DNA of 64,000 bases from Bacillota bacterium. Lineage in GTDB: Bacteria > Bacillota > Clostridia > Lachnospirales > CAG-274. The position numbers were made by a program, and so were the translations under genes. Below the pieces are notes generated by a model. It was not told the DNA's origin. It ran no database searches and was given only the letters and a program-made list of their open reading frames with translations. Positions within the stretch are counted from its first letter, which is position 1. Each line of letters opens with the position of its first letter. Shown piece after piece: positions 2,638 to 18,252 of this stretch. The stretch covers positions 1 to 64,000 of the forward strand of contig JAFSVK010000148.1 in the NCBI GenBank assembly GCA_017444985.1. Direction: 5' to 3'.

Positions 2638-2683
2638 AAAAAGGGTCTGTGAAAAAATGAGTTTTTTTCACAGACCCTTTTTT
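2638..2683 (+). terminator. Terminator of the rnc transcript
   Basis: A stem of about 20 bp with the core GGGTCTGTGAAAA pairs with its complement across a five-base loop and ends in a T tract. It is one of several terminators in this window whose stems contain TGTGAA/TTCACA. Confidence 0.9.
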
Positions 2684-2690
2684 ATACTAA

Positions 2691-2848
2691 AGGGGAGCTC
2701 TAAAAAGTGCTATTGAAGTAAAATTGAGATATCTTGTTCGAGGACCGGGAAATGGCTCGAAGCCAATGTAGAGCATTGGTGAGAGACATTGACGACGTAA
2801 TCGGGCAAGATAGCCAATTTTACGATTTATGGCTTTTTAGAGGTCCCT
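2691..2848 (+). repeat. R155 structured repeat, copy 2
   Basis: A full-length copy bounded by AGGGGAGCTCTAAAAAG and CTTTTTAGAGGTCCCT. It is inverted relative to copy 1, so plsX-acpP-rnc lies between inverted copies. It matches copy 3 almost throughout, differing mainly in single bases in predicted loops. Confidence 0.88.
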
Positions 2849-2927
2849 AAAATTATGCAGAAATCTTTATATGTAAAAAACATGAAGAAAAAATAATATT
2901 ACCAATAACACAAAATACTCTAACGAT

Positions 2928-2957
2928 CTGTAGGGAACGACCCGCGTGTCGTTTCGC
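2928..2957 (+). repeat. REP-like palindromic repeat, copy 1
   Basis: The core GGGAACGACCCGCGTGTCGT forms an imperfect hairpin (GGAACGAC pairing with GTCGTTTC). A nearly identical 30-base sequence recurs on the other strand at 32045-32074. The 150 bases around it, between R155 and pepD, hold nothing else I can recognise. Confidence 0.6.
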
Positions 2958-3006
2958 GTGAGCGATAACAAAAGGTGTGGGGAATAAATTTGTATCCCAT
3001 ATTTTT

Positions 3007-4473
3007 TTATTTTGCCGTTTTTGCCAGTTCTTCAAGTACTTTTTTTAAAAAGTTCCAGGTCCTCTCCGTACTTTTTATATGCAGTGTTTCATTGGGTGTG
3101 TGTATATCATCTATATCGGGACCTATGGAAACACAATCCAAGATATTCCCTATTTTATCGAAAAACAAGCCACACTCAAGGCCTGCATGAACATTATCTT
3201 CTATAAGAGTTTTGTCGAACATATCCTTGTATACATTTACCATGAGCTTTCTTAAAAAAGAGTCCTTTTTGTAGGGCCAAGCAGGATATTCTTCACATCT
3301 TTTTATTTTTGCTCCAAAGCAGTAGCACAGAGAGGAAAGTCTTGTGTAAAGTTCCTGTTTTTCGCTTTCCACACTGCTTCTTATCAAAAAGGAGAAGATC
3401 AAAGTATCATCTGTGGTTTTCATGATACCAAGATTAAGGGATGTCTGCGGAAGCCCCGAAATAAACAGATCCGTTTTTTGTATACCTGTGGGAAGGTTGT
3501 AGAGAAAAGAAATGAGTTTTTTGCTTTCTTCAACCGAGAGAGCTGCCTCCTCCTTCTCATCCGTCAAGGAAAGTGTGAGATAAATTCCAGAATCGGTAAT
3601 TGCACACTCGTTTTGGTATGTTTGTTCTATTGCAAGTATCCGCTCGTGAAGTTTTTTGAAGTTTTCATTTTCCTCAAGTAAAAATAAAGCCTCGGAGCTT
3701 CTGGGTATGGCGTTGTCCTTAAGTCCGCCGTTCATGGAAAGAATATAAATTTTAAATTCTTCCGTAAGTTTGTAGAGTGTTCTTCCTAAGAGAAAGTTGG
3801 CATTTGCTCTACCCTTATTTATCTCTTGCCCGGAGTGACCGCCTGTAAGACCACATACGGAAAGTTTACACAGCTTACCTTTTACTTTTTCTCTCTTTAA
3901 GGGGTAATCTATAACAGTTGTTAAACCTCCCGCACAGGCACAGGTAAGTATGCCCTCCGATTCGGAGTCGATGTTTATCATCATACTTGATTTAAGGGGG
4001 GAGGCATCAAGAAATTTAGCACCTAACATACCTATTTCTTCATCTACCGTAAATATAGCCTCTATAGGAGGATGTATGGCATCCTTGTCTGCCAAAAGGG
4101 CAAGAGCATAGGCTACACCTATACCGTCATCTCCGCCCAAGGTGGTACCTTCAGCTCGTATTTTATCTCCTTTTACGAAAAGACGCAGACCTTCGTTTTC
4201 AAAGTCTATATCCGTATCCGATTCCTTTTCGCACACCATATCCAGATGGCTTTGTACTATTACGGAAGGAGCATTTTCATATCCCGTGGAGCCGTTTTTA
4301 AATATAATAACATTTCCTATTTCATCCCGTATGTATTTAAGCCCTTTCTCTTTTGCAAAATCAACGATATAGTGACTTATTTTTTCCATATTTCCCGAGC
4401 CGTGGGGTATGGAAGCTATTTCTTCAAAATAGTGAAAAACTTCCTTCGGTTCCAAATGCGAAAGTACACTCAT
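3007..4473 (-). CDS. pepD: Aminoacyl-histidine dipeptidase PepD (M20C)
   Basis: This is a cytosolic zinc dipeptidase of the PepD/beta-Ala-His (carnosinase-like) family, hydrolysing Xaa-His and other dipeptides. In the 488-residue product the metal ligands are recognisable: His76 in SHLDMV, Asp115 in GGDDGIG, and the Glu145-Glu146 pair in VDEEIGM. The lid domain lies in the middle and the last His ligand near the C-terminus (HAGLECG). The ATG at 4473 has a GGAGGA site; an upstream extension of the frame (to 4590) lies inside the preceding gene and has no site. The gene follows the ThyX-like gene by a single base, so the two are co-transcribed. Confidence 0.95.
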   Translation of the reverse strand: MSVLSHLEPKEVFHYFEEIASIPHGSGNMEKISHYIVDFAKEKGLKYIRDEIGNVIIFKNGSTGYENAPSVIVQSHLDMVCEKESDTDIDFENEGLRLFVKGDKIRAEGTTLGGDDGIGVAYALALLADKDAIHPPIEAIFTVDEEIGMLGAKFLDASPLKSSMMINIDSESEGILTCACAGGLTTVIDYPLKREKVKGKLCKLSVCGLTGGHSGQEINKGRANANFLLGRTLYKLTEEFKIYILSMNGGLKDNAIPRSSEALFLLEENENFKKLHERILAIEQTYQNECAITDSGIYLTLSLTDEKEEAALSVEESKKLISFLYNLPTGIQKTDLFISGLPQTSLNLGIMKTTDDTLIFSFLIRSSVESEKQELYTRLSSLCYCFGAKIKRCEEYPAWPYKKDSFLRKLMVNVYKDMFDKTLIEDNVHAGLECGLFFDKIGNILDCVSIGPDIDDIHTPNETLHIKSTERTWNFLKKVLEELAKTAK

Positions 4474-4474
4474 A

Positions 4475-5095
4475 TTAAATTTCCTCCAAGAAAAATTCAT
4501 AAAAATAGGGTAGGGCTTTAAGCTCCTCGCAAAACTCCCTCCACTCTTCAAGCTTGTGCTCTTTTCTTGCCTTATACATGGCAAAGGCATTCTCGTAGGA
4601 AAAAGTACAGGTCCTCTTCTGGTTGTAGCTTGAGGGAAGAAGCTGTATTATGGAATACCAAAGTTCTTTATCCTTGCTTTCAATATATTCAAGACGCAAC
4701 TTTTCCAACACCTTTATGGTCTCATCCAGACAGGAAAGTGCGGGAGCTGTCATTTTTTCGCAACTGAAATCCCCTCTTTCAAAGGGCTTTGAGTGTATTT
4801 TGTGCATGGTGCTTGTGGAGTTGGCAACGGTACCCACTTTGTAGGTGTCGTATTCCTTCCACCAATATATAGGGGCTGTAATGTCAAGGCTTACAAATAT
4901 TTGTCTTACAAATTTTCTGTGGTCGGGGCCTGCTTTACAAAGCCTTTTTGCAAGGGAAAGATCGTTTTCACCTATTACAAAATCTCCCTTTTCGTTTGTG
5001 AAACTGTCGCTTTTTCCCCAGCTGTTCATAGGATTTCTTGCACCTCTGAGGGCACCTTCGAAATTAAATGTTTCGGTATTTTCCGTAAGTATCAT
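4475..5095 (-). CDS. ThyX-like conserved protein
   Basis: The 206-residue protein has the general plan of a flavin-dependent thymidylate synthase (ThyX) but lacks the diagnostic RHRxxSxNExS motif. What is seen: DHRKFVRQIFVSLDITAP at 58-75, then WWKEYDTYKVGTVANSTSTMH at 78-98 in the place where ThyX has its signature, then an LLPSSY turn at 152-157 and a final helix with Arg177 and EEWREF, reminiscent of the ThyX LP...NxRxL...R...AQxEIR region. That it belongs to the ThyX fold is my inference from this layout. A thymidylate synthase, a different flavin enzyme or a nucleotide-binding phage-type protein are all possible. The ATG overlaps the stop of the upstream gene. Confidence 0.5.
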   Translation of the reverse strand: MILTENTETFNFEGALRGARNPMNSWGKSDSFTNEKGDFVIGENDLSLAKRLCKAGPDHRKFVRQIFVSLDITAPIYWWKEYDTYKVGTVANSTSTMHKIHSKPFERGDFSCEKMTAPALSCLDETIKVLEKLRLEYIESKDKELWYSIIQLLPSSYNQKRTCTFSYENAFAMYKARKEHKLEEWREFCEELKALPYFYEFFLEEI

Positions 5096-5898
5096 TGTTC
5101 TTCTTCGCTTTCTCCGTATATATGTTTTTGTATAAGTTGCTTGGTTCTTTGAAGCCTCTTTTCAAGTTCTTCTTTTTCGCATAACAGGCTTTCCACCGTT
5201 TCCTCGAAAAGCTCCTCGTCCTCCATGATATCCTTGTATTCGCAGTCGTAAGGATCCAAAAGGTCTTCTATATCATCATGGAAATGCTCTATAAGCGCTT
5301 TAAGTCTGTCTATCTCGTCTTTTTTTTCTTTAAGAGTCTCTGCTTTTTTAATAAGCTGAGGGGTGGTCATATCGTCTATTTTTTTTAGCTGTGTCAGATT
5401 TGCACAGGAATAGGCTTGCCGAGCAGACTCGAAAAATCGTATCCTGTCAAGACAGTTGGGATTTATCTCGGGTTGCAGGTAGGCGGTTATCCTTGTGAAA
5501 AGCTGCTTTGCTTCTTTTTTTACCCGCTCGCTTGCTTTTGTGTAAGAGGCATTATCCGTTAGAGTAGCCCCGGATATAAGGGAGTTATCCGCATTTAGAC
5601 AGTTTAACTCGTACTCTTCTTTAAATACTCCTTCCAAGCTTATTTCGTAGGCTCTTTTTCTGTCAAGCCTTGATACGGCATAGTCAAAACAGCTTCTTAA
5701 ATAGTGGTCTTGGAAGGCTATTTTCATATTTTCAATGGTTTTGGAGAGTATTTTTTCGTTGTAATCTATCCAAAGTTGCCTGTAATATATAAAATTGAGC
5801 TCATCCCTTTGTACCGACAAATTCACTGCTTCTTGCCTGTATTCTTCTATTTTTTTATCAAGGCTTTCCGCTGTGGGAAAGGGTATTACATTGTTCAT
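5092..5898 (-). CDS. Unknown coiled-coil protein
   Basis: I do not recognise a family. The protein (about 268 residues) has no signal peptide or membrane segment, contains a charged helical N-terminal part, and ends in long heptad-like stretches (roughly residues 175-265, rich in Glu, Lys and Leu) that should form a coiled coil and finish in an acidic tail (GESEEEQ). The ATG at 5898 is preferred over an in-frame GTG at 5907 because AAAGGGCGGT lies at proper distance before the ATG. Its stop overlaps the ThyX-like start, so it is the first gene of a three-gene operon ending in pepD. A phage-like or nucleic-acid-associated role is possible but unsupported. Confidence 0.7.
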   Translation of the reverse strand: MNNVIPFPTAESLDKKIEEYRQEAVNLSVQRDELNFIYYRQLWIDYNEKILSKTIENMKIAFQDHYLRSCFDYAVSRLDRKRAYEISLEGVFKEEYELNCLNADNSLISGATLTDNASYTKASERVKKEAKQLFTRITAYLQPEINPNCLDRIRFFESARQAYSCANLTQLKKIDDMTTPQLIKKAETLKEKKDEIDRLKALIEHFHDDIEDLLDPYDCEYKDIMEDEELFEETVESLLCEKEELEKRLQRTKQLIQKHIYGESEEEQ

Positions 5899-5931
5899 AT
5901 CCGTCACCGCCCTTTGGTATCTGTTGTGTGT

Positions 5932-5960
5932 ATTTTATCATTTTTGACTTTTTTCTGCAA
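5932..5960 (-). promoter_or_regulatory. Putative promoter of the leftward pepD operon
   Basis: On the minus strand TTGCAG and TAAAAT are separated by 17 bases, about 35 bases before the first start codon of the operon. The match is fair, and no better candidate is seen in the divergent region shared with glgB. Confidence 0.5.
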
Positions 5961-6065
5961 CATATTTGAAAAGAAAATTTTGGGCTTTTATGTGGGAAGA
6001 ACGGGGAATTGTGTAAAAATGTGAAATTTATAAAAATTTATGTGGTAAATTTTGTACAAATGGTG

Positions 6066-6124
6066 TATAATGGTATAAGGAATATTTGAAGGTTATAAAA
6101 GCGTGGGAAGTATAACGCTTTTAT
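6066..6124 (+). promoter_or_regulatory. glgB promoter -10 and leader hairpin
   Basis: A perfect TATAAT (6066-6071) lies about 100 bases before glgB, without a clear -35 box. Downstream, in what would be the 5' leader, ATAAAAGCGT (6095-6104) pairs perfectly with ACGCTTTTAT (6115-6124) across a ten-base loop. It has no T tract after it, so it looks like an operator or RNA element rather than a terminator. Confidence 0.5.
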
Positions 6125-6164
6125 GACCTAAATACATAAATTATCAAGAGAGGAAGTGTGTAAA

Positions 6165-8372
6165 ATGAGTATGGTTACCAATATTACCGACCTTCAACTT
6201 ATTGTAAATGCCCATTGTGGGGATCCCCATGTTATATTGGGTATGCATGAAATAGAAAGATACGGACAGCCCTGTGTTATTGTTCGTGTAATGAATCCAC
6301 AGGCAAAGAAGATAACGATCATAGACGATGCCAACAAGACAAGAAGGTATGAGGCTGAAAAGGTACACAGTTTCGGCTTTTTCGAATGCTTGATACCCAC
6401 AAGGAAACAGTGGTTTAAATATAAACTTGAAACAGACTACGGTGAGGGTGTGGTAGTTACAGAGTACGATCCCTACACCTTTCCCCCGGGAATAGGGGAA
6501 GAAGATATTTATCTTTTTAACCAAGGTACACACTACAGAGTATATGAAAAGCTGGGCGCAAATGTTACCACCATAGACGGTGTGGAAGGTGTTCTTTTTG
6601 GAGTGTGGGCACCTAATGCAGGCAGAGTAAGCGTTATAGGAAACTTCAACGCATGGGACGGCAGACGCCACCAGATGCGCCTTTTGGGAGGCTCGGGTAT
6701 ATGGGAGATATTTATACCGGGTCTTAAAGAGTGCGACGGCTATAAGTTTGAGATAAAAACAAACACGGGAGAGATAATACAAAAATCCGACCCCTATGCA
6801 AAATTTGACGAACTTCGCCCCAGCCAAACTTCCCTTGTTTTTGATATAAATAAATATAAGTGGAACGATGCCGCTTGGTACGATCATCTTAAAGATACGG
6901 ATAAGTTCAACATACCCATGAACATTTATGAGGTGCATTTAGGCTCATGGAAGAGGGTAGAAGATGAAGATAACAGATTTTTAAGCTATCTTGAATTGGC
7001 AGATACTCTCATACCTTATGTTAAGGATATGGGCTATACCCATATAGAACTGCTTCCCATAGAGGAGCATCCCTTTGACGGTTCTTGGGGCTATCAGCTT
7101 ACGGGCTACTACGCTCCCACAAGTCGTTACGGAAATCCCGACGAGTTTATGGAGTTTGTGGACAGGTGTCATCAGGCGGGAATAGGTGTATTCCTTGATT
7201 GGGTACCCGCTCATTTCCCGAAGGATTCCCACGGCCTTGCAAAGTTTGACGGCTCAGCTCTTTATGAACACGCAAATCCCATGCAGGGCGAACATCCCGA
7301 ATGGGGTACCTTGATATTCAACTACGGCAGATGCGAGGTAAAGAACTTCCTTATAGCAAATGCCCTCTACTGGGTGGAAAAATTCCATATAGACGGTTTA
7401 AGAGTAGATGCTGTTGCATCCATGCTCTACCTTGATTATGCCAGAAGCGAGGGGCAGTGGGTGCCCAATCAATACGGCGGCAGAGAAAATATCGAGGCTG
7501 TGGAATTTTTAAAACACTTAAATTCCATAATGGCACAGAGAAACCCTCATGCCCACATGATAGCAGAGGAGTCCACCTCTTGGCCGAAGGTTACGGAAAA
7601 GCCCGAAAATGACGGCCTTGGTTTTACATTAAAGTGGAATATGGGCTGGATGAACGACTTCCTTGAGTATGTGGAAAAAGAGCCTATATACAGAAAATAT
7701 CACCACTACAATATGACATTTGCCTCCACCTATGCCTACAGCGAGAAGTTCATACTCGTTTTAAGCCATGACGAAGTGGTACACGGCAAAAAGTCCATGC
7801 TTGACAAAATGCCCGGCGACCTTTGGCAGAAGTTCGCAAACCTTAGAGTTTCCTACGGCTACGCCATGACTCACCCGGGTAAAAAGCTTTTGTTTATGGG
7901 CGGAGAGTTCGGTCAATTTATAGAGTGGGACGAAAAGAGGCCTCTTGACTGGTTCCTTTTGGAGTATGACCACCACAGAAATACCCTTGAGTACGTGAAG
8001 GCACTTAACAAAATATACAAGCAGTACAACTCCCTTTGGAGCAAAGACTTTGACAGCTTCGGCTTCGAGTGGATAGATGCCGACGACAAGGACAGAAGTA
8101 TCTATTCCTACATCAGAAGAGGCTACGCAAAGGAAGATACACTTGTTATAATATGCAACTTTACTCCCAATACCTACGAAGATTTCAGAATAGGCGTACC
8201 CTTTGAGGGCAGATGGAAGGAAATATTCAATTCCGATGCCACCATCTACGGAGGAAGCGGCGTTGTAAACACCCAAGCGGCTAACAGCGAAAAAATAGAG
8301 TGGAATCACAGACAAGACAGTATAGGTTTGAGACTTGCTCCCTTGTCGGTAGTGATATACAAGCCCGAGTAA
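6165..8372 (+). CDS. glgB: 1,4-alpha-glucan branching enzyme GlgB
   Basis: GlgB transfers alpha-1,4 glucan segments to make alpha-1,6 branches in glycogen. The 735-residue product has an N-terminal region and CBM48-type beta domain (about residues 20-230), then the GH13 barrel. The catalytic residues are visible: nucleophile Asp415 in GLRVDAV, acid Glu468 in IAEES, and Asp536 in LSHDEVVHG. The ATG at 6165 follows GAGAGGAAG; an in-frame codon further upstream would overlap that site. No other glycogen genes (glgC, glgA, glgP) are adjacent, so this is a stand-alone copy. A strong terminator follows. Confidence 0.96.
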   Translation: MSMVTNITDLQLIVNAHCGDPHVILGMHEIERYGQPCVIVRVMNPQAKKITIIDDANKTRRYEAEKVHSFGFFECLIPTRKQWFKYKLETDYGEGVVVTEYDPYTFPPGIGEEDIYLFNQGTHYRVYEKLGANVTTIDGVEGVLFGVWAPNAGRVSVIGNFNAWDGRRHQMRLLGGSGIWEIFIPGLKECDGYKFEIKTNTGEIIQKSDPYAKFDELRPSQTSLVFDINKYKWNDAAWYDHLKDTDKFNIPMNIYEVHLGSWKRVEDEDNRFLSYLELADTLIPYVKDMGYTHIELLPIEEHPFDGSWGYQLTGYYAPTSRYGNPDEFMEFVDRCHQAGIGVFLDWVPAHFPKDSHGLAKFDGSALYEHANPMQGEHPEWGTLIFNYGRCEVKNFLIANALYWVEKFHIDGLRVDAVASMLYLDYARSEGQWVPNQYGGRENIEAVEFLKHLNSIMAQRNPHAHMIAEESTSWPKVTEKPENDGLGFTLKWNMGWMNDFLEYVEKEPIYRKYHHYNMTFASTYAYSEKFILVLSHDEVVHGKKSMLDKMPGDLWQKFANLRVSYGYAMTHPGKKLLFMGGEFGQFIEWDEKRPLDWFLLEYDHHRNTLEYVKALNKIYKQYNSLWSKDFDSFGFEWIDADDKDRSIYSYIRRGYAKEDTLVIICNFTPNTYEDFRIGVPFEGRWKEIFNSDATIYGGSGVVNTQAANSEKIEWNHRQDSIGLRLAPLSVVIYKPE

Positions 8373-8378
8373 ACATAG

Positions 8379-8406
8379 GGGGTGTGAATGTTCACACCCC
8401 TTTTTT
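8379..8406 (+). terminator. Terminator of glgB
   Basis: A 10-bp perfect stem, GGGGTGTGAA/TTCACACCCC, with a two-base centre is followed by six T residues. Confidence 0.92.
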
Positions 8407-8428
8407 GAATTTAATCGGATTTTACAAT

Positions 8429-8588
8429 AAGGGTACCTCTAAAAAGTGCTATTGAAGCAAAATTGAGATAGCTTGTTCGAGGACTGGGAAATGGCTCGAA
8501 GCCAATGTAGAGCATTGGTGAGAGACATTGACGACGTACTCGGGCAAGATAGCCAATTTTACGATTTATGAGTTTCTAGAGGTGCCCT
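8429..8588 (+). repeat. R155 structured repeat, copy 3
   Basis: A full-length copy in the same orientation as copy 2, sitting between the glgB terminator and the ATP-grasp operon. Compared with copy 2 it differs at a handful of positions, and its right end reads TTTCTAGAGGTGCCCT instead of TTTTTAGAGGTCCCT. Copies 2 and 3 together bracket the pepD operon and glgB. Confidence 0.88.
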
Positions 8589-8626
8589 TAAGCAAAAGCA
8601 TTATATGTGCGATGATATGTTTTAAA

Positions 8627-8645
8627 TTTGTATTATTGATACAAA
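8627..8645. promoter_or_regulatory. Palindrome upstream of ATP-grasp operon
   Basis: TTTGTAT and ATACAAA form perfect 7-bp arms around a five-base spacer, about 60 bases before the first ATP-grasp gene. The shape fits a dimeric repressor operator. No clear -35/-10 pair can be fixed around it. Confidence 0.4.
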
Positions 8646-8703
8646 CAGAGTAGAGCGGACGGCTCTATGCCTATTTTGCGACTTGTAATATTAGGAGGCA
8701 AGA

Positions 8704-10401
8704 ATGAAAAATATAATTATTGTGGAAGCAATATCAACGGGGTACAATTTAGTGGAGGATGTCAGAAGAAGAGGCTATAATCCCGTAGTTCTGGAAAGTC
8801 CGGGAAAGGAAAGTGCGGATATTAAGGCTACACGCAGTGCCTCATACGCTCTCTTTTACAAAAGACCTACGATAATAAAGGCATCGGAAGATTATACCGA
8901 GACCCTTGCCACAGTTAAGAAATACGATCCCGTATTGGTGGTGGCAGGTTCCGAGCAGGGGGTCGGACTTGCGACGCACTTATCGGAGGATCTCGGTCTT
9001 TTGGGGAATCCTTATAAAAACATTGATGTTATGACAAGAAAGGATGCCATGCAGGAAGCTTTGAAAAAAGCAGGTATAAGATATATAAGGGGAAAGGTGG
9101 TAAAAACGGCTGATGAGGCTGTTGCTTTTTGTCGGGAAAACGGCTTCACCACAGCAGTTATTAAACCCTTGCAAAGTGCAGGCAGTCAGGGCTTGTTTTT
9201 GTGCGATGATCTTGAAGAAGTAAAAAAGGCTACGGAAACTATAATGACATATAATGATCTATACGGTCTTCCCATAAGAAAGGCACTTGTACAGGAGCGT
9301 ATAGTCGGTACGGAATATTGTGTAAATACACTGTCTTGCAACGGCAAACACACGCTTAATTCACTGCTTAAATACAGTATGATAAAAACGGAGGAGGGTG
9401 GTTATATCTATGACTACTCCGAAACATTAAGCCACCCCGAACAGGGTCATACGGAACTTATAGAGTATGCTTTTAAGGTGGCGGATGCCATAGATTTCAA
9501 ATACGGTGTCATACACGGAGAATATATGATAGATGAAAAGGGTCCCGTGTTGATAGAGGTAAATTGTCGTCCTATGGGTTGTACAATGACCGACGAATAT
9601 TTAGACATGATATTCGGACAACATGAATCCGATACGATGCTGGATGCTTATTTGGACCCCGAAGGTTTTGCTGTAAAAGCTGAGAGACCCTATGGGACCT
9701 TAAAAAAAGGTGCGCTGAAATTTATAATGATACCTAAGGATATGGAGGCGGAAGACCATCCGGTTTGTGTCATTGCAAAACAACTTGAAAGCACCTATAA
9801 AATCTCGGTAAACGACAGCACCACCCCCGTATGCTACTCCAAGACAAGGGATATGGAAACATCGGGAGGGATCATATATCTTGTACATTCCGACGAAAAC
9901 GTTGTTATGTCAGACGTTGCCATACTAAGAGAAATAGAAAGCAAATACTTTTCTTTGATCTTCAGTGAAGGTATGTCAAGAAGGTGGTTTGCGGATGCCA
10001 ATGTTGCTACGACCGATTTTGAAAGAATTATAAAAGAATGCAACTGCCATGGTGCCATACTTGCGGCAGGAGATAAGGTATGGGAAAGAGAGGGTATACA
10101 AACCGCAACACCTCAGACTATAGATGATGTACACAAAGGTTTTGATTGTGTTATAATAGGCTATCAGCTTTCATTGCTTGACCTTAAGGAGTCGGCTTGT
10201 CTGGAGGTCATATTTAAAACCATGGACAAGGTAAAAAACGGCGGAAGGGTCATAATCCCTCAAAATACTTACGAATATCTTTCATATAAAAGAGAGGGTG
10301 CAGAACTTCTTATGAGAATAAAACACCTTAACATACAGGTGCCGGTTCCCGGAATCAACGGCTATGTTATAGGTGTGAAAGAGAATCGAGAGAGGTGGTA
10401 A
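8704..10401 (+). CDS. ATP-grasp ligase with methyltransferase-like C-terminus (paralogue 1)
   Basis: The 565-residue protein is an ATP-grasp enzyme, a family that joins a carboxylate to an amine through an acyl-phosphate. The order seen is: an N-terminal Rossmann-like segment (1-100, IIIVEAISTGYNLVEDVRRRG), an ATP-grasp core with Lys154 (VIKP), the flexible loop SAGSQG (159-163), Glu198/Glu204, and the metal-binding Glu285 and Asn287 in GPVLIEVNCRPMG. Residues about 440-565 read like the second half of a SAM-dependent methyltransferase (FDCVIIGYQLS, then KVKNGGRVIIP), without a recognisable SAM-binding glycine motif. The N-terminal style recalls L-amino-acid ligases of the BacD type, but the substrate cannot be read from sequence. 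It is the first gene of a three-gene operon. Confidence 0.85.
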   Translation: MKNIIIVEAISTGYNLVEDVRRRGYNPVVLESPGKESADIKATRSASYALFYKRPTIIKASEDYTETLATVKKYDPVLVVAGSEQGVGLATHLSEDLGLLGNPYKNIDVMTRKDAMQEALKKAGIRYIRGKVVKTADEAVAFCRENGFTTAVIKPLQSAGSQGLFLCDDLEEVKKATETIMTYNDLYGLPIRKALVQERIVGTEYCVNTLSCNGKHTLNSLLKYSMIKTEEGGYIYDYSETLSHPEQGHTELIEYAFKVADAIDFKYGVIHGEYMIDEKGPVLIEVNCRPMGCTMTDEYLDMIFGQHESDTMLDAYLDPEGFAVKAERPYGTLKKGALKFIMIPKDMEAEDHPVCVIAKQLESTYKISVNDSTTPVCYSKTRDMETSGGIIYLVHSDENVVMSDVAILREIESKYFSLIFSEGMSRRWFADANVATTDFERIIKECNCHGAILAAGDKVWEREGIQTATPQTIDDVHKGFDCVIIGYQLSLLDLKESACLEVIFKTMDKVKNGGRVIIPQNTYEYLSYKREGAELLMRIKHLNIQVPVPGINGYVIGVKENRERW

Positions 10402-10403
10402 AC

Positions 10404-12101
10404 ATGAGGAATATAATAATCGTGGAGGCAGTGTCAACGGGATACAATTTAGTGGAGGATGCGAGGCGAAGAGGCTATAATCCAATAGTATTGGAATATG
10501 CAGAGAATGAAGGCGGAGATATAAAGGATATGCGCAAAGCCGCTTATGCTCGTTTTTACAAGTACCCTCAAATAATAAAGGCATCGAAAAATTACGCCGA
10601 GACCCTTGCCGAAATAAAAAAATACCATCCCATATTGGTAGTGGCAAGTTCGGATCATGGTATCGAGCTTGCTTCACGCTTATCGGAGGATCTTGGGCTT
10701 TTGGGAAATCCTTATAAAACCGTTGCCGCTATGACAAGAAAGGATGCCATGCATGAAGCCTTAAAAAAGGCAGGTATAAGATATATAAAGGGAAAAGTTA
10801 TAAAAACGGCGGAGGAAGCTGTGGCTTTTTGCCAAGAAAACGGCTTTTCCACAGCGGTTATCAAGCCTTTGCAAAGTTCGGGCAGTCAGGGCTTGTTTTT
10901 GTGTGATGATCTTGAGGAAGTAAAAAAGGCTGCGGAAACCATAATGACGTATGTTGATACACTCGGATTTCCCATAAGAAAGGCACTTATACAGGAACGC
11001 ATCGTCGGTACGGAATATATTGTAAATACCGCATCCTGCAAGGGTGAACATAGGCTTAATTCATTGCTGAAATATAAAAAAGTCAAAACCTCGGAGGGAG
11101 GGTATATCTATGACTACTGCGAAACATTAAGCCACCCCGAACAGGGACATACTGAGCTTATAGAGTATGCTTTTAAGGTGGCTGATGCTATAGGTTTTAA
11201 ATACGGTGTCATACATGGAGAATATATGATAGATGAAAAGGGCCCCGTATTGATAGAGGTAAATTGCCGACCTATGGGCGGCTCTATTGCAGACGAGTAT
11301 CTTGATATGATATTCGGACAGCATGAAACCGATGCAATGTTGGATGCCTATTTGGATCCCGAGGGTTTTAAGATAAAAGCCAAGAGACCCTATGGTACAT
11401 TAAAAAAAGGTGTGTTGAAATTTATAATGATACCTAATGATATGGAGGCGGAAGACCATCCCGTTTGTGTCATTGCAAAACAACTTGAAAGCACATATAA
11501 AATTGCGGTAAACGACAGCACCGTTCCCGTATATTATCTAAAAACAAGGGATCTGGACACAACGGGAGGTACTATATTTCTTGTGCATTCCGATGAAAAT
11601 GCAGTTATGTCAGATCTTGCTTTATTAAGAGAGACAGAACAAAAATATTTTTCCTTGCTACTGAATGACGGTATGTCAAGAAGGTGGTTTGCGGATGCCA
11701 ATGTTGCTACGACCGATTTTGAAAGGATTATAAAAGAATGCAACTGCCACGGTGCCATACTTGCGGCAGGGGATAAGGCTTGGGAAAGAGAGGGTATACA
11801 AACCGCAACACCTCAGACTATAGATGATGTACACAAAGGTTTTGATTGTGTTATAATAGGCTATCAGCTTTCATTGCTTGATCTTAAGGAGTCGGCTTGT
11901 CTGGAGGTCATATTTAAAACCATGGACAAGGTAAAAAATGGCGGAAGGGTCATAATCCCTCAAAGCACATATGAATATCTTTCTTATAAAAGAGAGGGTG
12001 CGGAACTTCTTATGAGAATAAAACATCTTACCATACAGGTACCCTTTTCGGGACTTAACGGCTATGTTATAGGAGTGAAAGAGGATCGATCACATGCGTA
12101 A
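10404..12101 (+). CDS. ATP-grasp ligase with methyltransferase-like C-terminus (paralogue 2)
   Basis: A tandem paralogue of the preceding gene with the same length (565 residues) and the same ATP-grasp residues. It starts two bases after the first gene stops. The ATG at 10404, after GAGAGAGGTGG, is chosen over a GTG nine bases upstream. The copies differ most in the first 110 residues and around 205-230, the likely substrate-facing parts (CVNTLSCNGKHT against IVNTASCKGEHR), whereas the last 130 residues are almost the same. This points to a duplication in which the two ligases may take different substrates or act one after the other. The stop overlaps the start of the MATE gene by eight bases. 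Confidence 0.85.
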   Translation: MRNIIIVEAVSTGYNLVEDARRRGYNPIVLEYAENEGGDIKDMRKAAYARFYKYPQIIKASKNYAETLAEIKKYHPILVVASSDHGIELASRLSEDLGLLGNPYKTVAAMTRKDAMHEALKKAGIRYIKGKVIKTAEEAVAFCQENGFSTAVIKPLQSSGSQGLFLCDDLEEVKKAAETIMTYVDTLGFPIRKALIQERIVGTEYIVNTASCKGEHRLNSLLKYKKVKTSEGGYIYDYCETLSHPEQGHTELIEYAFKVADAIGFKYGVIHGEYMIDEKGPVLIEVNCRPMGGSIADEYLDMIFGQHETDAMLDAYLDPEGFKIKAKRPYGTLKKGVLKFIMIPNDMEAEDHPVCVIAKQLESTYKIAVNDSTVPVYYLKTRDLDTTGGTIFLVHSDENAVMSDLALLRETEQKYFSLLLNDGMSRRWFADANVATTDFERIIKECNCHGAILAAGDKAWEREGIQTATPQTIDDVHKGFDCVIIGYQLSLLDLKESACLEVIFKTMDKVKNGGRVIIPQSTYEYLSYKREGAELLMRIKHLTIQVPFSGLNGYVIGVKEDRSHA

Positions 12102-13830
12102 CGGTAAAATATTAAATAAAAAGTTTTTTCAGTTTTTACTGCCTACATCTTTAAGCATAGTGGCAATGTCCCTCAACGAATTTGTAGATGCTCTGCTTGT
12201 GGCAAACCTTATAGACTCCGATGCAATGACACTTGTAAATATGGGTACTCCCCTTGTGTTTATATTTGCGGTGATATATGCACTTTTGGGAGTGGGAGGC
12301 TCTACATTATATGCAGGGTATCTCGGTCGATATGAAATAAAAAAAGCCGAAAAAATATTTACAGTCACAATGCTTGCGGCTCTGTTCATATCCCTTGCTG
12401 TGCTGATATTCGGCTTTGTGTTTATTGACTTTCTTTCGGGACTTATGTGTAAAGCCCCGGAATACAGCACTATTTTCAAACAATATATAAGGGTGCTTAT
12501 AGTTTCGAGTGTTCTGATAATACCTATACAGGTACTTATAAGTTTTATGCCGTCTTTCGGACGTCCGGGGGTAGGTACATTTATAAATATTACAGCAAAT
12601 GTTGTAAATTTGATAATGGACTATGTTTATATTCGTTTTTTTGCCACAGGTCTGTCGGGTGCCGCTTATGCCACACTTACAGGCTATGCGGTGGGAGCTG
12701 TTATAATATTTGTGCTATACATCATGGGTAAATTGCAGCTGCCCTTTGCAAAAATATCTTTAAAGGATCTTTGTGAATTGAAAGAAGCGATTGCGGTAGG
12801 TCTTTCACCTGCTGCAAATCAAGTGGGTTACTGTATCAAAGTATCTTTTTCAAATCACGTGGCATTTGCACTTGCAGGCATGGCGGGAACAACGGTGTAT
12901 TCCTTATGTATGCAGGTCGTATCCATAATATCCATATTTATCGGTGGGGTAATAGATGCCGCTGTACCTATAGCATCCTCCCTATACGGACAAAGAGATT
13001 TCTCGGGAGTTCGCTTACTTATGAAAACGGCTATATGGGTGCAGTTCATCACAACTATTCTTTGCTTTGCCGTAATCGAAGTTTGGCCGCAGGGCGTTTT
13101 GGCAATGTATAATGTATCGGGGGATATGACACCTCTTGCTATAAACGGTTTGCGCATATTCACCGTAATGTTTTTATTCAGAGGCTTTACATTGGTATAC
13201 ATATACTATTTTCCTATTATAGGTAGAAAGATATATGCTTTTGTAATAAGTCTTACAGACGGCTTTCTCGGGCTTATACCCTTGATATTGATACTTACAA
13301 TGTTAAACGGCATAAACGGATTGTGGCAAGCCTATGCACTGCTTTCCATATTGCTGGTGTTTGGTATTGTGGTGGTGAATATAATCATCTCCATACGCTC
13401 CAAGGGAAAATACAGTAAGCTCCTTTTGCTTGAGCACGAGGATGAAAATATCCCCGTTTACGAATGTAGCATAAATGCAATAAATAAGGATGTTTCGGAA
13501 CTCTCAAAAAACATACAAACATTTTGCGAGGATCACGGTACAGAACAAAAACTCTCTCTTCTTACCGCACTGTCAGTGGAAGAAATGAGTGTTTTTACCA
13601 TAGAACAAAACAAAAACTCCCATATAGACCAAATCGATATCTTGCTAAAGATATATCCAGAATATATATTGATGGATTTCAGAAGCATAGGCACTCCCTT
13701 TGACATATCCGCAACAACGGAGGAATATTCCAATATGGATATTTTGAAAAAAATAGTCACCGATATGGAATACAACTATGTTTTGGGTATGAACCAAACA
13801 CGCCTAAAATATAATAGGCAATATTCTTAA
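12094..13830 (+). CDS. MATE-family exporter with GHKL-ATPase-like tail
   Basis: The first ~450 residues are a twelve-segment MATE (MOP superfamily) antiporter, beginning LLPTSLSIVAMSLNEFVDALLV. MATE proteins export small, often cationic or amphipathic compounds using Na+ or H+ gradients. Residues about 465-578 form a soluble domain resembling the RsbW/SpoIIAB-type histidine-kinase ATPase: LSVEEMSVFTIEQN where the N box should be, then DFRSIGTPFDI and a closing MNQTRLKY. The usual N-box asparagine and the DxG motif look altered, so ATP binding may be lost. It overlaps the second ligase gene, strongly suggesting that it exports or gives immunity to the ligase product. Confidence 0.88.
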   Translation: MRNGKILNKKFFQFLLPTSLSIVAMSLNEFVDALLVANLIDSDAMTLVNMGTPLVFIFAVIYALLGVGGSTLYAGYLGRYEIKKAEKIFTVTMLAALFISLAVLIFGFVFIDFLSGLMCKAPEYSTIFKQYIRVLIVSSVLIIPIQVLISFMPSFGRPGVGTFINITANVVNLIMDYVYIRFFATGLSGAAYATLTGYAVGAVIIFVLYIMGKLQLPFAKISLKDLCELKEAIAVGLSPAANQVGYCIKVSFSNHVAFALAGMAGTTVYSLCMQVVSIISIFIGGVIDAAVPIASSLYGQRDFSGVRLLMKTAIWVQFITTILCFAVIEVWPQGVLAMYNVSGDMTPLAINGLRIFTVMFLFRGFTLVYIYYFPIIGRKIYAFVISLTDGFLGLIPLILILTMLNGINGLWQAYALLSILLVFGIVVVNIIISIRSKGKYSKLLLLEHEDENIPVYECSINAINKDVSELSKNIQTFCEDHGTEQKLSLLTALSVEEMSVFTIEQNKNSHIDQIDILLKIYPEYILMDFRSIGTPFDISATTEEYSNMDILKKIVTDMEYNYVLGMNQTRLKYNRQYS

Positions 13831-13847
13831 AGAGCTCTTTGTCTATA

Positions 13848-13882
13848 GGGAACCTCAAAAAACAATGTTTTTAGAGGTTCCC
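13848..13882. repeat. Mini-derivative of R155 ends
   Basis: GGGAACCTC-AAAAA and TTTTTAGAGGTTCCC form a hairpin that keeps only the two terminal arms of R155 with almost nothing between them. It lies 17 bases after the MATE stop, so it may also serve as a weak terminator, although no T tract follows on the plus strand. It joins directly onto the helicase remnant. Confidence 0.6.
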
Positions 13883-13998
13883 ATAATAAAACTCTTCCCC
13901 GTCCCCGTAGGCTGCACCACAGCTACACGATCTTTAAACGCAAAAAGCTGCGTCAGCCTTTCATAAGTTTCTTTGTTATGTTTATGAAGTCGTAACAC
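13855..13998 (-). pseudogene. Truncated helicase start (Walker A remnant)
   Basis: On the minus strand a 48-codon frame from a GTG encodes HNKETYERLTQLFAFKD, then RVAVVQPTGTGKSFIMG, which is a clear superfamily-2 helicase motif I with its usual lead-in. The frame then runs into the mini-repeat and stops (TGA within the repeat). Everything after motif I is missing; the other side is occupied by the MATE gene. It reads as the surviving 5' end of a large DEAD/SNF2-type helicase gene cut off by insertion or deletion at the repeat. No ribosome site is evident. Confidence 0.6.
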
Positions 13999-14024
13999 AG
14001 CTTTTTACCACGCTTTTCTATATT

Positions 14025-15038
14025 TTATTCATATCCATTTGGGTTGTTTTTCTGCCAGTTCCAAGTGTCTTTACACATATCTTCAAGGGTTCTTGTTGCT
14101 GTCCAATCAAGCACCCTCTGTGCTTTGTCACTATTAGCCCAAAATTCCGGCAAATCACCGCTTCTGCGTTCATCGAATTCATATTTGATTTTGATGTTGT
14201 TAGCCTTTTCAAAAGCATTTACAATTTCAAGTACGCTGTAGGGTGTACCTGTACCCAAATTAAAAATTTCGGGTCCTTTATGTTTTGCGGCATATTCAAC
14301 AGCCTTTACATGACCCTTCGCCAGATCCGTAATATGTATATAGTCTCGTCTGCAAGTGCCGTCCTTTGTGGGATAGTCGTTGCCGAATATTGTAAGATGA
14401 TCTCTTCTTCCCACTGCCACTTGTGAAATATAAGGCATAAGATTGTTTGGTATGCCCTTCGGATCTTCACCTATAAGTCCGGATTCATGGGCACCTATGG
14501 GATTAAAATACCTAAGTAAAATTACAGACAACTCACTATCGGCAACACTTGCATCGGAAAGTATTTGCTCCATCATGGACTTCGTCCAACCATAGGGATT
14601 GGAACAGGTTCCTTTTTTCATGGTTTCAACATAGGGAATGTCATTTTCTTCACCGTATACCGTGGCAGAAGAAGAAAATACTATATTTTTACACCCGTAT
14701 TCCGCCATACATTCAAGTAATGTAATTGTGGTATCTATGTTGTTTCTGTAATATATAAGGGGCTTTTTCACAGATTCTCCCACAGCTTTTAAACCTGCAA
14801 AATGTATTACTACATCTATTTGATTGTTTTTAAAAATTTCCGATACAACAATTTTATCGATAATATCTGCTGTGTAAGAAATAACTTTTTTATCGGTGAT
14901 TTTTTCGATTCGATCAATTGCTTTTTTATCACTGTTACTGTAATTATCGGCAATAATAACATTGTAACCGCTGTTTAAAAGCTCGACCGCCGTATGCGAC
15001 CCTATATATCCTGCCCCTCCGGCTAATAAAACATTCAT
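14025..15038 (-). CDS. galE: UDP-glucose 4-epimerase GalE
   Basis: GalE interconverts UDP-glucose and UDP-galactose with bound NAD. The 337-residue SDR protein shows the NAD loop GGAGYIG (7-13), the Ser124 region FSSSATVYGE, and the catalytic pair Tyr149/Lys153 in NPYGWTK. Length and the C-terminal DGTCRRDYIHI, RRSGDLPEFWA segments match true GalE. AGAAAGG precedes the ATG. It is the last gene of the leftward polysaccharide operon and would supply a UDP-galactose (or N-acetyl form) building block. Confidence 0.95.
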   Translation of the reverse strand: MNVLLAGGAGYIGSHTAVELLNSGYNVIIADNYSNSDKKAIDRIEKITDKKVISYTADIIDKIVVSEIFKNNQIDVVIHFAGLKAVGESVKKPLIYYRNNIDTTITLLECMAEYGCKNIVFSSSATVYGEENDIPYVETMKKGTCSNPYGWTKSMMEQILSDASVADSELSVILLRYFNPIGAHESGLIGEDPKGIPNNLMPYISQVAVGRRDHLTIFGNDYPTKDGTCRRDYIHITDLAKGHVKAVEYAAKHKGPEIFNLGTGTPYSVLEIVNAFEKANNIKIKYEFDERRSGDLPEFWANSDKAQRVLDWTATRTLEDMCKDTWNWQKNNPNGYE

Positions 15039-15101
15039 TCAAATACCTTTCTGTTAATCACATTTTCTTTCTTGTACAACAACGGTAAAGAGGGAATACC
15101 C

Positions 15102-15761
15102 TCATTTTTTAACAATATATTTCTCAAATAAATACTTAAAAAGTTTTTCCGGACAAGTATTATATGCCATTCGCTCGGGATGCCATTGAATACCTAATAA
15201 TTTTTTATCTGCAACAGCAAATGCCTCAACCGTATTATTTTCCTTGTCGATTACTACGGGTTTTAAAATATTCGGAAAATTATTAACAAAAAAACCGTCA
15301 TTGTGAAAATTATTGACTATTGTTTCCTCATTTTTTTCGGTTAATATGACTTTATGATTTTTTCCTACTTCACGATTTACTTTTAAATTTCTAAAATCAT
15401 CTATTATCCCACCAAAATGACAAGCAATTACTTGCATACCTCTGCAAATCCCAAGTATCGGAATATCTTTTTTTAAGGCGATTTCCAATAACTTAGTTTC
15501 GACCTTATTTCTGTTAATTTGCTGAAATCCCTCTTTTTTAAAACTATACGCTTTTTCAGGTAATATACCACCGCCCGAAAAAATAATTATTTCCGGCTTT
15601 ATACTTTCTACAAGGGTCTCCACTTCATTTGTAAAATTTGAAATAGGAATTGCCGATATATCCATAGAATTAAAAAAATCAATATAGTTTTTCTCAAGGC
15701 TGTCAACTATATCCCCGTATCGGTTCAACTCTTCCCTTTGAGTTATCAAAGCCCTTATCAT
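15102..15761 (-). CDS. Class I glutamine amidotransferase-like hydrolase
   Basis: The 219-residue protein is a stand-alone class I glutaminase-fold enzyme (peptidase C26-like) with the full triad: Cys106 in GICRGMQ, and His194/Glu196 in GIQWHPE. Such enzymes hydrolyse gamma-glutamyl bonds. Its ATG overlaps the stop of the cytidylyltransferase upstream (ATGA), so the two are made together. In Campylobacter a hydrolase of this type (Cj1417) releases glutamate from a gamma-glutamyl-CDP intermediate made by a neighbouring cytidylyltransferase (Cj1416) during phosphoramidate synthesis. The neighbourhood here is similar, but the glutamine kinase of that pathway is not in the window, so the match is a hypothesis only. 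Confidence 0.82.
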   Translation of the reverse strand: MIRALITQREELNRYGDIVDSLEKNYIDFFNSMDISAIPISNFTNEVETLVESIKPEIIIFSGGGILPEKAYSFKKEGFQQINRNKVETKLLEIALKKDIPILGICRGMQVIACHFGGIIDDFRNLKVNREVGKNHKVILTEKNEETIVNNFHNDGFFVNNFPNILKPVVIDKENNTVEAFAVADKKLLGIQWHPERMAYNTCPEKLFKYLFEKYIVKK

Positions 15762-16474
15762 TGTTGCTTACGCCTTTGCTTCATTAATAGATAACCCTCG
15801 AATAAATCCAGGTCTTCTTTTCTTGTTATCTTTATATTAGTTTGAGAACCTTCCGAAAAATAAATGGTTTTTCCCATTTTATACATCAGTGTTGTTGTAT
15901 GGGGCTCCACCTCATTTATAATTCCTGTTTTAACAGCCTCTTTATATATATCGCTTATAAAGCCGTAGTTGAATGCGTGGGGTGTGGACATACAGGCAAT
16001 CGTATCACGATCTATCCACTTACTTGACTTCGTTTTATCATCTTTAACACCGGAAAGTAAAAAGAAATCTGTTGTTGAAATGGCATTTCCCTTTTCCTTG
16101 CATACTTTTATCGCATCGGATATTATGTAATCTTCAATAAAGGGCGAGGCTCCGAAATGAACCAAAACAACATCATCTCTTTTTATTTTATCTTCAAGAT
16201 GATTTATGCCGTTCATTACAGATTCCTGAAAAGTTGCTCCCCCTTTAGCTATCCATTTTAACTTATCAAAACTATATTCACTTTTTAATGTTTGCATATA
16301 ATCAATATAAGATTCTATACAAACCACCTCAATTGCATCTATTTCCTTGTGGTTTTGAAATGCTTCTATGGTATATGCAAGCACAGGTTTACCAAGCACT
16401 TCTATAAATTGCTTTGGTATGTTAGCACCAACTCTATTGCCAACGCCACCTGCCAATATGACAGCTACATTCAT
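15758..16474 (-). CDS. IspD/TarI-family cytidylyltransferase, atypical
   Basis: The 238-residue protein has the IspD/TarI fold, which activates a phosphorylated polyol or similar compound with CTP: ILAGGVGNRVGANIPKQF at the N-terminus, then the KGGATFQESV segment. It is unusual at the nucleotide site. Where family members read HDxxRPF, this one has HFGASPF (106-112), losing the Asp and Arg, and the later TPQ-type loop reads STPHAFNY. The second IspD-type gene at 23 kb keeps HDGVRPL. The substrate is therefore probably different from ribitol, glycerol or methylerythritol phosphate. It lies between the LicC-like gene and the amidotransferase-like gene, overlapping the latter. Confidence 0.85.
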   Translation of the reverse strand: MNVAVILAGGVGNRVGANIPKQFIEVLGKPVLAYTIEAFQNHKEIDAIEVVCIESYIDYMQTLKSEYSFDKLKWIAKGGATFQESVMNGINHLEDKIKRDDVVLVHFGASPFIEDYIISDAIKVCKEKGNAISTTDFFLLSGVKDDKTKSSKWIDRDTIACMSTPHAFNYGFISDIYKEAVKTGIINEVEPHTTTLMYKMGKTIYFSEGSQTNIKITRKEDLDLFEGYLLMKQRRKQQ

Positions 16475-16495
16475 ATAAATATTTCCTTTCGATTA

Positions 16496-17224
16496 TCATT
16501 TTGTAAAATCAGAGTTATTATGTATTTGCTGAGCATTAAGCAAATCATCAACTCCATTCACCTCGCTCCACGCTTTACCTGCAATATCATGGCAATAAAG
16601 TTCAAAGTCATGGAACATTATCATTTGAACGAGGGAGTCCTCAAAATATTGATCATACATATCTCCGTTTATCATTGAATCCACTTCTTGTTTTAATAGG
16701 CGAGAAGAAACTGGATCTAATTTTGTTATACAGCAGTAATTCGCTGAAAAATGCTCCAACTTCTTGCTCATAACAAGAATCTTATCTCCTTGTGTAACCA
16801 CATTATATGCACCTTGTCTTATGTATGATGAATCAATAATAACATAGGGATAATTTGTAGGTTTTGTTAAATATTCTTCGATTATTTCGTCTGAAAAAAC
16901 AACATCACCATGAACAATGGTAACGTTTTCTCTTTCTAAATAGTCGCGTGCAAACCAGACTGAAGAAATAGAGTTGGTAACTTCATAGAAGGGATTTATT
17001 ACAAACTTTACATTTTCTCCCTCTAATTCCGTTTTTACATCATTAGCTTTATATCCGATTACAATAACAATTTCCGCATTTTTATCAGCTTTACGAATTG
17101 TTCTCACCATACGTTGAAGAACTGTGGTTTCTTCATCCAGCTTATAGCTTGTTTTGGGATACTTCAGTGTCAGCGGATGTAAATTATTTCCCTTGCCCGC
17201 CGCAAGTATAATATAGGTCATCAT
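16496..17224 (-). CDS. LicC-like nucleotidyltransferase
   Basis: The 242-residue protein is a sugar-phosphate/choline-phosphate type nucleotidyltransferase: ILAAGKGNNLHPLTLKYPK at the start, NPFYEVTNSISSVWFA at about 77-92 (typical of LicC-like CTP:phosphocholine enzymes), and the metal-binding HGDVVF near 105-110. The canonical GxGxR loop reads GKGNNL. It starts two bases after the LicA-like gene stops. Together the pair resembles the lic pathway, kinase then cytidylyltransferase. A CTP:phosphoglutamine role like Campylobacter Cj1416 is an alternative, given the amidotransferase-like gene downstream. Confidence 0.82.
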   Translation of the reverse strand: MMTYIILAAGKGNNLHPLTLKYPKTSYKLDEETTVLQRMVRTIRKADKNAEIVIVIGYKANDVKTELEGENVKFVINPFYEVTNSISSVWFARDYLERENVTIVHGDVVFSDEIIEEYLTKPTNYPYVIIDSSYIRQGAYNVVTQGDKILVMSKKLEHFSANYCCITKLDPVSSRLLKQEVDSMINGDMYDQYFEDSLVQMIMFHDFELYCHDIAGKAWSEVNGVDDLLNAQQIHNNSDFTK

Positions 17225-17226
17225 AA

Positions 17227-18252
17227 TTACAGTTCCTCCTCATACACACCGATTTCATGGTTTAAAAAATTTAAATCTTCCAACTTGCAAGATGTTAATG
17301 CGTCCATTGCAATATCATATTCTTTTTTATCAACCTCTTCGCCATACATAGGCAAAGCAATAATACTCATATTTTTAGCGAAATGATACCACTGTTCTTT
17401 AAGGTATCCGACACCTTGTCCTTTGCTGAGTTTAAGCATTGTCCAATGCATATAGAACCAACCTGTTATAGCAATATATGCATAAAAATGACGTTTTTGA
17501 GTTTCCGTAGGTTTATGACGATAATAGGTAAACAGAATACTATCTATGTCTGCTAAGGTATGTCGACCTCCGCAAACGTAAGAGCCGATATCAAATCCAG
17601 GATCTCCAAAACCTCCATATTCCCAATCTATAAGATATATTTCTTCTTTATTGATAAGGAAGTTATCATCTCTTGCATCTCCATGGATATTGCATTTTTT
17701 TATACCATCATATTGGGTAAGTTCAGCAAGCCTATATATACGCTCTTTTAGATTTTCAAAATCGGGGAAGTGCCCATATTTTTCGGGCTCAATTTGCGAT
17801 TTTATACCTTCGGCTTTTTTTATTACATTAAAATTCCAACGCACGTGACACGGAGCTGTATGAAGGCGTCTGATAAGCATTATTGCACGCACCATATCGT
17901 TAAGATTATTATAATCAAACTCATAGTGCTCGACAAAACGGCCAATTCGCCATCCTTCATCTACATCCATTGCAATAAGAGTTGTATCAATGCCAGCATC
18001 TTCAACTATTTTCTGCATAATGGTTTCGCGCCCACGCTCAATCAAAATTTCCGAACCCAAGCCCGGATGACGGTATACATACCTTCCCCCGTTGAGTTTA
18101 AAACTTAATACAACATTTGTAAGCCCTGCCTGCACTGGTACTAATTCTTCTACATCCGACCTGTTACAGTCAAAAACGCAGCATATATTGTTTAGCACAG
18201 TGTTCCGACTTTCTTCTGTAAACAATCCGCCTGTTGTTTGAATATCTGACAT
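17227..18252 (-). CDS. LicA-like choline/aminoglycoside-type kinase
   Basis: The 341-residue protein belongs to the choline kinase/aminoglycoside phosphotransferase family. Visible motifs are the N-terminal GLTNVVLSF and YVYRHPG (52-73), the catalytic Brenner motif HGDARDDN (200-207), and the metal-binding DWEYGG (219-224). LicA enzymes phosphorylate choline before LicC makes CDP-choline and LicD transfers phosphocholine to a surface polymer. With a LicC-like gene next to it and two LicD genes in the operon, that route is plausible, but no LicB choline transporter is present and the substrate could be another amino-alcohol. AAAGGAG precedes the ATG. Confidence 0.85.
   Translation of the reverse strand: MSDIQTTGGLFTEESRNTVLNNICCVFDCNRSDVEELVPVQAGLTNVVLSFKLNGGRYVYRHPGLGSEILIERGRETIMQKIVEDAGIDTTLIAMDVDEGWRIGRFVEHYEFDYNNLNDMVRAIMLIRRLHTAPCHVRWNFNVIKKAEGIKSQIEPEKYGHFPDFENLKERIYRLAELTQYDGIKKCNIHGDARDDNFLINKEEIYLIDWEYGGFGDPGFDIGSYVCGGRHTLADIDSILFTYYRHKPTETQKRHFYAYIAITGWFYMHWTMLKLSKGQGVGYLKEQWYHFAKNMSIIALPMYGEEVDKKEYDIAMDALTSCKLEDLNFLNHEIGVYEEEL

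Follow-up and report, generated by a model that had tools for sequence, protein, structure and literature searches.

A tandem ATP-grasp ligase and tailed MATE transporter operon, a candidate small-peptide biosynthesis-and-export module common to rumen bacteria and methanogens

Results

Organization of the operon and its borders

The window, by which we mean the whole 64,000-nucleotide stretch of DNA that was analysed, carries between positions 8704 and 13830 an operon encoding two predicted ATP-grasp ligases and a MATE transporter. The ORF coordinates confirm the original description of three genes on one strand, with a gap of 2 bases between the ligase genes and an overlap of 8 bases between ligase 2 and the MATE gene. 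The features considered here are the following.

8377-8402, + strand: terminator-like hairpin of the upstream glgB-like gene, parting that gene from the operon
8420-8600, no strand: copy of the R155 interspersed repeat, upstream and outside the system
8704-10401, + strand: ligase 1 (P0001), 565 aa, ORF
8704-9963, + strand: ligase 1 residues 1-420, L-amino-acid-ligase-type ATP-grasp domain, from an AF2 model with structure and profile matches
9964-10401, + strand: ligase 1 residues 421-565, C-terminal domain resembling a truncated class I methyltransferase, SAM motif I absent
10404-12101, + strand: ligase 2 (P0002), 565 aa, ORF
10404-11663, + strand: ligase 2 residues 1-420, ATP-grasp domain with 80% identity to that of ligase 1
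11664-12101, + strand: ligase 2 residues 421-565, the same C-terminal domain as in ligase 1
12094-13830, + strand: predicted MATE exporter (P0003), 578 aa, ORF
12094-13428, + strand: P0003 residues 1-445, MATE transporter core (Pfam MatE, E 1.8e-23)
13429-13830, + strand: P0003 residues 446-578, RsbW-like tail (GHKL fold) with other residues at the N-box Asn, G1 Asp and G2 Gly positions
13848-13882, no strand: hairpin with 17-bp arms 3′ of the operon, either terminator-like or a small palindromic element

A purine-rich, ribosome-binding-like stretch, TTAGGAGGCAAG, lies 5′ of the ligase 1 ATG. An Rfam search of positions 2500-14100 gave no match at the gathering score. The operon had been proposed to be a movable module flanked on both sides by R155 elements. 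Copies of this repeat occur within the window at 1-150, 2680-2851 and 8420-8600 only; none was found downstream of the operon, and the hairpin at 13848-13882 is a different sequence element. R155 is interspersed genome-wide, with about 40 strong copies (among 40 candidates scored), so the single upstream copy has little meaning. Since the repeat does not bracket the operon, the idea of a movable module lost its support.

The catalytic domain is of the L-amino-acid ligase type

The N-terminal part of the ligases is an ATP-grasp domain (residues 1-423; Pfam ATP-grasp_4, E 4.9e-12). The top fold match of an AF2 model of ligase 1 (pLDDT 91, pTM 0.90) was BL00235 (3vot; VIA Z 32.3, over residues 1-424), while BacD/YwfE matched at Z 30-31 (3wnz, 30.9) and RizA (4wd3) at Z 27.8. 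PurK-type chains ranked next, at Z 25-29, so the fold alone is not fully decisive between an L-amino-acid ligase and a PurK-type enzyme. As judged from sequence comparison, the choice is decided by the profile: PDB profile matches below 1e-10 were two L-amino-acid ligases only, and the entry 30vh, annotated "L-amino acid ligase", matched at E 1.3e-56. E285 and R289 align with the E-x-x-x-R motif of 3vot and 30vh. The ATP/Mg residues K113, K154, E204, E285 and N287 are invariant in all 44 relatives, as anticipated for the three of them (Lys154, Glu285, Asn287) that had been read as intact, and R289 is kept in 41 of the 44. The original prediction had left the ligases to structure and profile searches; these returned ATP-grasp L-amino-acid ligases as the best matches, together with a methyltransferase fold at the C terminus. 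By fold and conserved residues, P0001 and P0002 are well supported as predicted L-amino-acid-ligase-type ATP-grasp enzymes.

The C-terminal domain lacks SAM motif I

Residues 421-565 (~140 residues) were modelled alone by AF2 with a pLDDT of 86. The model matched 3cgg (VIA Z 9.1, rmsd 3.0, 119 aligned); the best Foldseek match was SibL (E 2.5e-5), the methyltransferase-like domain of anamorsin (8.5e-5) was in the top ten, and the matches listed were methyltransferases or methyltransferase-fold proteins. Neither Pfam, which gave no family beyond chance, nor the PDB sequence profile matched this domain, which is placed by its predicted fold only, that of a truncated class I methyltransferase. 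The half-methyltransferase-like domain noticed at the outset was in this way borne out.

The accompanying suggestion that the product is capped through this domain fared less well. The glycine-rich SAM loop (motif I, GxGxG) is missing in 43 of 44 members, a GxGxG-like pattern being present in one (L017), and a SAM-dependent methyl cap is therefore unlikely. We regard the domain as a pseudo-methyltransferase that probably serves in docking or in holding the substrate. Ligases of a shorter form, of about 495-500 aa and without a match to the C-terminal domain, still adjoin a tailed MATE, so the domain is dispensable for the pairing. It also looks specific to the rumen family, because a plasmid search recovered only ATP-grasp proteins of ~27-33% identity that mostly aligned to residues 1-426.

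The tandem ligases arose by recent duplication

P0001 and P0002 are 83% identical overall, and their tandem arrangement in the window is a recent duplication. The two halves of the genes differ in divergence: dS is 0.68 for the catalytic halves and 0.24 for the C-terminal half, and the copies differ at 15 of 360 nucleotides in codons 421-540 compared with 229 of 1260 in codons 1-420 (Fisher P 4e-13). Divergence climbs again beyond codon 540, and this pattern makes it likely that codons 421-540 form a gene-conversion tract confined to the C-terminal domain. After duplication, the catalytic halves would thus have diverged, probably towards different predicted substrates, while the C-terminal halves were homogenised. 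The conversion pattern fits substrate divergence with a common partner kept; chance conversion is also possible. The original prediction of a two-ligase system stands as far as this locus goes, where the tandem pair is present, and fails as a general form: in most relatives each MATE is accompanied by a single ligase, and we rejected the second ligase as essential to the system.

The MATE protein carries a degenerate RsbW-like tail

Pfam MatE (PF01554) matched P0003 in two stretches, with 83.4 bits against a cut-off of 24.9. Its tail gave no match in Pfam or in a PDB profile search, and was assigned to the RsbW fold from profiles: hhalign aligned the tail family with RsbW proteins at a probability of 96.3 (E 1.7e-9). 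An NRPS-linked homologue (L127) matches Pfam HATPase_c_2 at E 3.6e-9. Of 26 ligase-linked tails, 3 retain the N-box Asn (20 have Tyr there), 2 retain the G1 Asp and none has the G2 Gly; the corresponding counts in other tailed MATEs are 5, 6 and 8 of 9. The original reading of a MATE protein with a GHKL-like tail therefore holds for the transporter and for the RsbW-like fold given by profiles, but the ATP-binding residues have been lost. On these profile and motif comparisons, the tail is a descendant of an RsbW-type anti-sigma kinase. The conserved Tyr at the N-box suggests a domain that is dead but selected, not decaying.

Ligase and MATE genes are inherited together

A MATE gene adjoins the ligase on the same strand in 19 of 24 intact bacterial ligase loci (20 public loci, the window, and L139, L140 and L141) and in 10 of about 36 intact archaeal copies, leaving 5 bacterial and about 26 archaeal copies without an intact MATE beside them. 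L041 has MATE fragments. Spacing between the two genes ranges from -58 to +294 bp. Gene order varies by lineage, MATE-ligase or ligase-MATE, and since both orders exist the linkage has outlived rearrangement.

The ligase and MATE trees have their main splits in common. Archaeal sequences make up a single clade in each tree, with 30 ligases (100) in one and 10 MATEs (100) in the other, and the short-form bacterial group is likewise a clade. The Mantel correlation between ligase and MATE is r 0.95 (19 pairs; 0/5000 permutations), a figure inflated by relatedness, and it shows co-inheritance of the two proteins, not interaction. The expectation that the genes stay together in relatives was thus met by ligase and MATE and not by the second ligase. 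No tailoring gene beside the ligase-MATE pair was conserved among the loci compared, which suggests that the product is a plain peptide or that its precursor is made elsewhere.

The family is patchy and concentrated in herbivore gut genomes

Genomes with the ligase family numbered 4 of 392 in the order, 1 of 398 in the phylum sample and 6 of 19 in the archaeal genus sampled. Methanobrevibacter genomes hold up to 10 ligase copies each. The named sources of the 67 public loci are nearly all MAGs from ruminant or herbivore gut, with goat, sheep, deer, reindeer, horse and rumen RUG source sets represented. Host taxa are Lachnospiraceae, Selenomonadales, Prevotella, Synergistales, Spirochaetes and, above all, Methanobrevibacter; MAG contigs may be misbinned, which makes single-phylum cases weaker. 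No relative was found among viral contigs, and our literature search found no paper connecting ATP-grasp ligases, MATE efflux and Methanobrevibacter.

Tailed MATEs occur beside partner-switching and amide-forming genes

Outside the ligase family, tailed MATEs lie beside an NRPS with a terminal reductase and a phosphopantetheinyl transferase (PPTase) in L126 and L127, beside STAS, GH3 and SpoIIE genes in L128, and beside SpoIIE in L129. In L151, L152 and L153 the MATE accompanies SpoIIE and STAS or RsbW, and in L154 a MATE, a double ATP-grasp (ATPgrasp_ST) protein, GH3, SpoIIE and APH occur together. The tailed MATEs of L130-L135 and L144 had no partner-switch or amide-forming neighbour among the genes examined. 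The proximity to NRPS, GH3 and double ATP-grasp genes ties this class of exporter to amide-bond-forming enzymes, and from a handful of loci we read it as a putative class of transporters with partner-switch domains, often beside such enzymes. In L007, L142, L143 and L155 we saw sodium:dicarboxylate symporters whose additional N-terminal region looks RsbW-like; the one in L007 lies 13 bp after the ligase.

These neighbourhoods raise the possibility, to which we would hold only tentatively and as an addition to a peptide-export function, that partner switching controls the exporter through its RsbW-like tail. A STAS protein would be bound or released by the tail according to SpoIIE phosphatase activity, and export would be that of a regulated signal or stress response. 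Within the ligase branch, the MATE and ligase genes of L138 have a STAS-APH fusion upstream, and the L140 operon combines two ATP-grasp enzymes with STAS-APH and SpoIIE, but with an ABC transporter; in genome G000, SpoIIE, STAS and RsbW genes form a set at another locus (L136). In the rumen methanogen M. ruminantium M1, clusters of NRPS, MatE, serine phosphatase and anti-sigma antagonist genes have been described, in a text that makes no mention of ATP-grasp (PMC2812497). The likeness to our loci is a MATE beside amide-forming enzymes and partner-switch genes, with an NRPS in place of the ATP-grasp ligase. Against such control, most ligase-MATE loci have no adjacent SpoIIE or STAS gene, and with its ATP motifs gone the tail cannot be the kinase.

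Discussion

L-amino-acid ligases use ATP to form the acyl-phosphate of one amino acid, which is then joined to the amine of a second. From the computed folds, motif states, adjacency, congruent phylogenies and distribution we infer a peptide product, outward transport and roles for both accessory domains, and we consider it reasonably probable that the operon is a small-peptide (or aminoacyl-amide) biosynthesis-and-export module. Each ligase would activate one amino acid or other carboxylate as its acyl-phosphate and couple it to the amine of a second amino acid, and the MATE protein, whose gene is linked to that of the ligase, would carry the product out. A STAS-type antagonist would probably dock on the MATE tail and thereby gate the exporter or set its position. 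The core of the original prediction, an amino-acid ligase plus exporter, is supported by the fold, the conserved residues, the conserved adjacency and the congruent trees. The ligase copies with no intact MATE beside them, and the finding of no conserved tailoring gene among the loci compared, weigh against the module.

Other functions of the same genes were weighed. The ligase might instead load amino acids onto a non-peptide acceptor (cell-surface glycan, lipid, carrier protein or peptide), with the MATE protein flipping the loaded acceptor and not exporting a peptide. Several observations are in keeping with this: NDP-sugar, nucleotidyltransferase and kinase-like ORFs, named from their sequences alone, lie near the operon at 14025-18252; the ligase has a weak match to the sugar-transfer ATP-grasp family PF14397 (E 4e-4); three MATEs weakly match Polysacc_synt; and the double ATPgrasp_ST protein of L154 sits beside a tailed MATE. 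However, the best fold and profile matches are ligases of free amino acids, and surface-polysaccharide genes are no recurrent neighbour family, so we judge this reading unlikely. Less likely again is a selfish or defensive locus moving among rumen microbes, for example an antimicrobial with its immunity exporter. The patchy presence across several bacterial phyla and a single archaeal genus would suit such a locus, as would the multiple, partly broken copies in Methanobrevibacter, but no recombinase or transposase family recurs beside the pair, R155 does not bracket the operon, and the single archaeal clade implies few transfers. A known primary-metabolism ligase was one of the results named beforehand as telling against the whole idea, and none was found among the homologues. 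For an ordinary ATP-grasp ligase of the purine or carbamoyl-phosphate type, misread as biosynthetic, Pfam GARS_A does score above its cut-off, but L-amino-acid ligases score best and the gene is accessory and duplicated, which makes this reading very improbable.

As a small-peptide module, the operon is of a known kind, an L-amino-acid ligase plus exporter; what is unusual is the two accessory domains and the cross-domain rumen distribution. With BacD/BacE of bacilysin it has in common the ATP-grasp L-amino-acid ligase fold and the linkage of ligase and exporter genes. BacE is an MFS protein, whereas the exporter here is a MATE with an RsbW-like tail; the ligase, unlike BacD, continues into a pseudo-methyltransferase domain, and we saw no anticapsin-type genes. 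The best named NCBIfam families for residues 1-417 are PRK07206 (E 6e-77; 259 and 255 bits, below the cut-off of 302) and DdaF, the dapdiamide A synthase (E 2.6e-42; 145 bits, below the cut-off of 840). Because both cut-offs are missed, membership in a named natural-product system is not established, and both models stop at ~417 aa, without the C-terminal domain. Two ATP-grasp amino-acid ligases per cluster are also a feature of the phosphonoalamide pathway, where of the tandem ligases PnaC and PnaB one makes dipeptides and the other adds a third unit (PMC11867202). Those are distinct enzymes in a phosphonate cluster, whereas the ligases here are recent duplicates with no phosphonate genes seen. 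The MATE tail belongs to the same fold family as the anti-sigma kinases RsbW and SpoIIAB, but is fused to a transporter and has its ATP-binding residues replaced in nearly all ligase-linked members.

Partner switching is known mainly from sigma factor control, and methanogenic archaea, to our knowledge, are without bacterial sigma factors. We offer as a speculative generalization, more open to doubt than the module itself, that SpoIIE/STAS/RsbW partner switching may directly control small-molecule exporters through a fused RsbW-like domain, and that in the rumen ligase branch this domain may have become an ATP-independent receptor, with peptide export common to bacteria and methanogens. If this is true, transporter-RsbW fusions would widen partner switching to the direct control of transport. 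Rumen methanogens and the bacteria around them would have in common a peptide-making and exporting module that, within our searches, is undescribed, and it would open a way to peptides that act between methanogens and fermenters.

Repeats and genes around the operon

R155, an interspersed repeat of ~160 bases with inverted ends (AAGGGTACCTCTA / TAGAGGTGCCCTT), has about 40 strong copies as scored across the source genome G000 (308 first-look candidates). It has no Rfam match and resembles MITE- or REP-type elements. Its copies in the window and the convergent block 3′ of the operon are:

1-150, R155
2680-2851, R155
8420-8600, R155
14025-18252 (-), convergent gene block

As named by reading the sequence, the block holds galE-, glutamine-amidotransferase-, IspD/TagD-, nucleotidyltransferase- and APH/choline-kinase-like genes, which together resemble a surface-polymer or phosphocholine-type cluster.

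Symporters and ligases at other loci

Four of the compared loci encode sodium:dicarboxylate symporters with ~130 additional N-terminal residues:

L007:9727-11337
L142:7081-8676
L143:7422-9050
L155:8070-9737

These extensions look RsbW-like, and the A4 profile matches those of L143 and L155. The L007 symporter gene starts 13 bp past the ligase.

In Methanobrevibacter, a first tandem ligase copy (L029:116-1822, L038:6152-7858) has Lys in place of E273 and Cys in place of R289 and is possibly an inactive partner paralogue; the second retains both residues. Frameshifts or stops split the ligase ORFs of six mostly archaeal loci (L034, L039, L045, L054, L060, L065), and these therefore show either turnover of the ligase family in rumen methanogens or assembly errors.

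The L140 ligase operon (L140:3543-16186) has an ABC transporter, a STAS-APH fusion, a second ATP-grasp enzyme, SpoIIE, a tyrosine phosphatase and two condensation-like proteins without Pfam hits, and is a candidate for a richer version of the ligase system.
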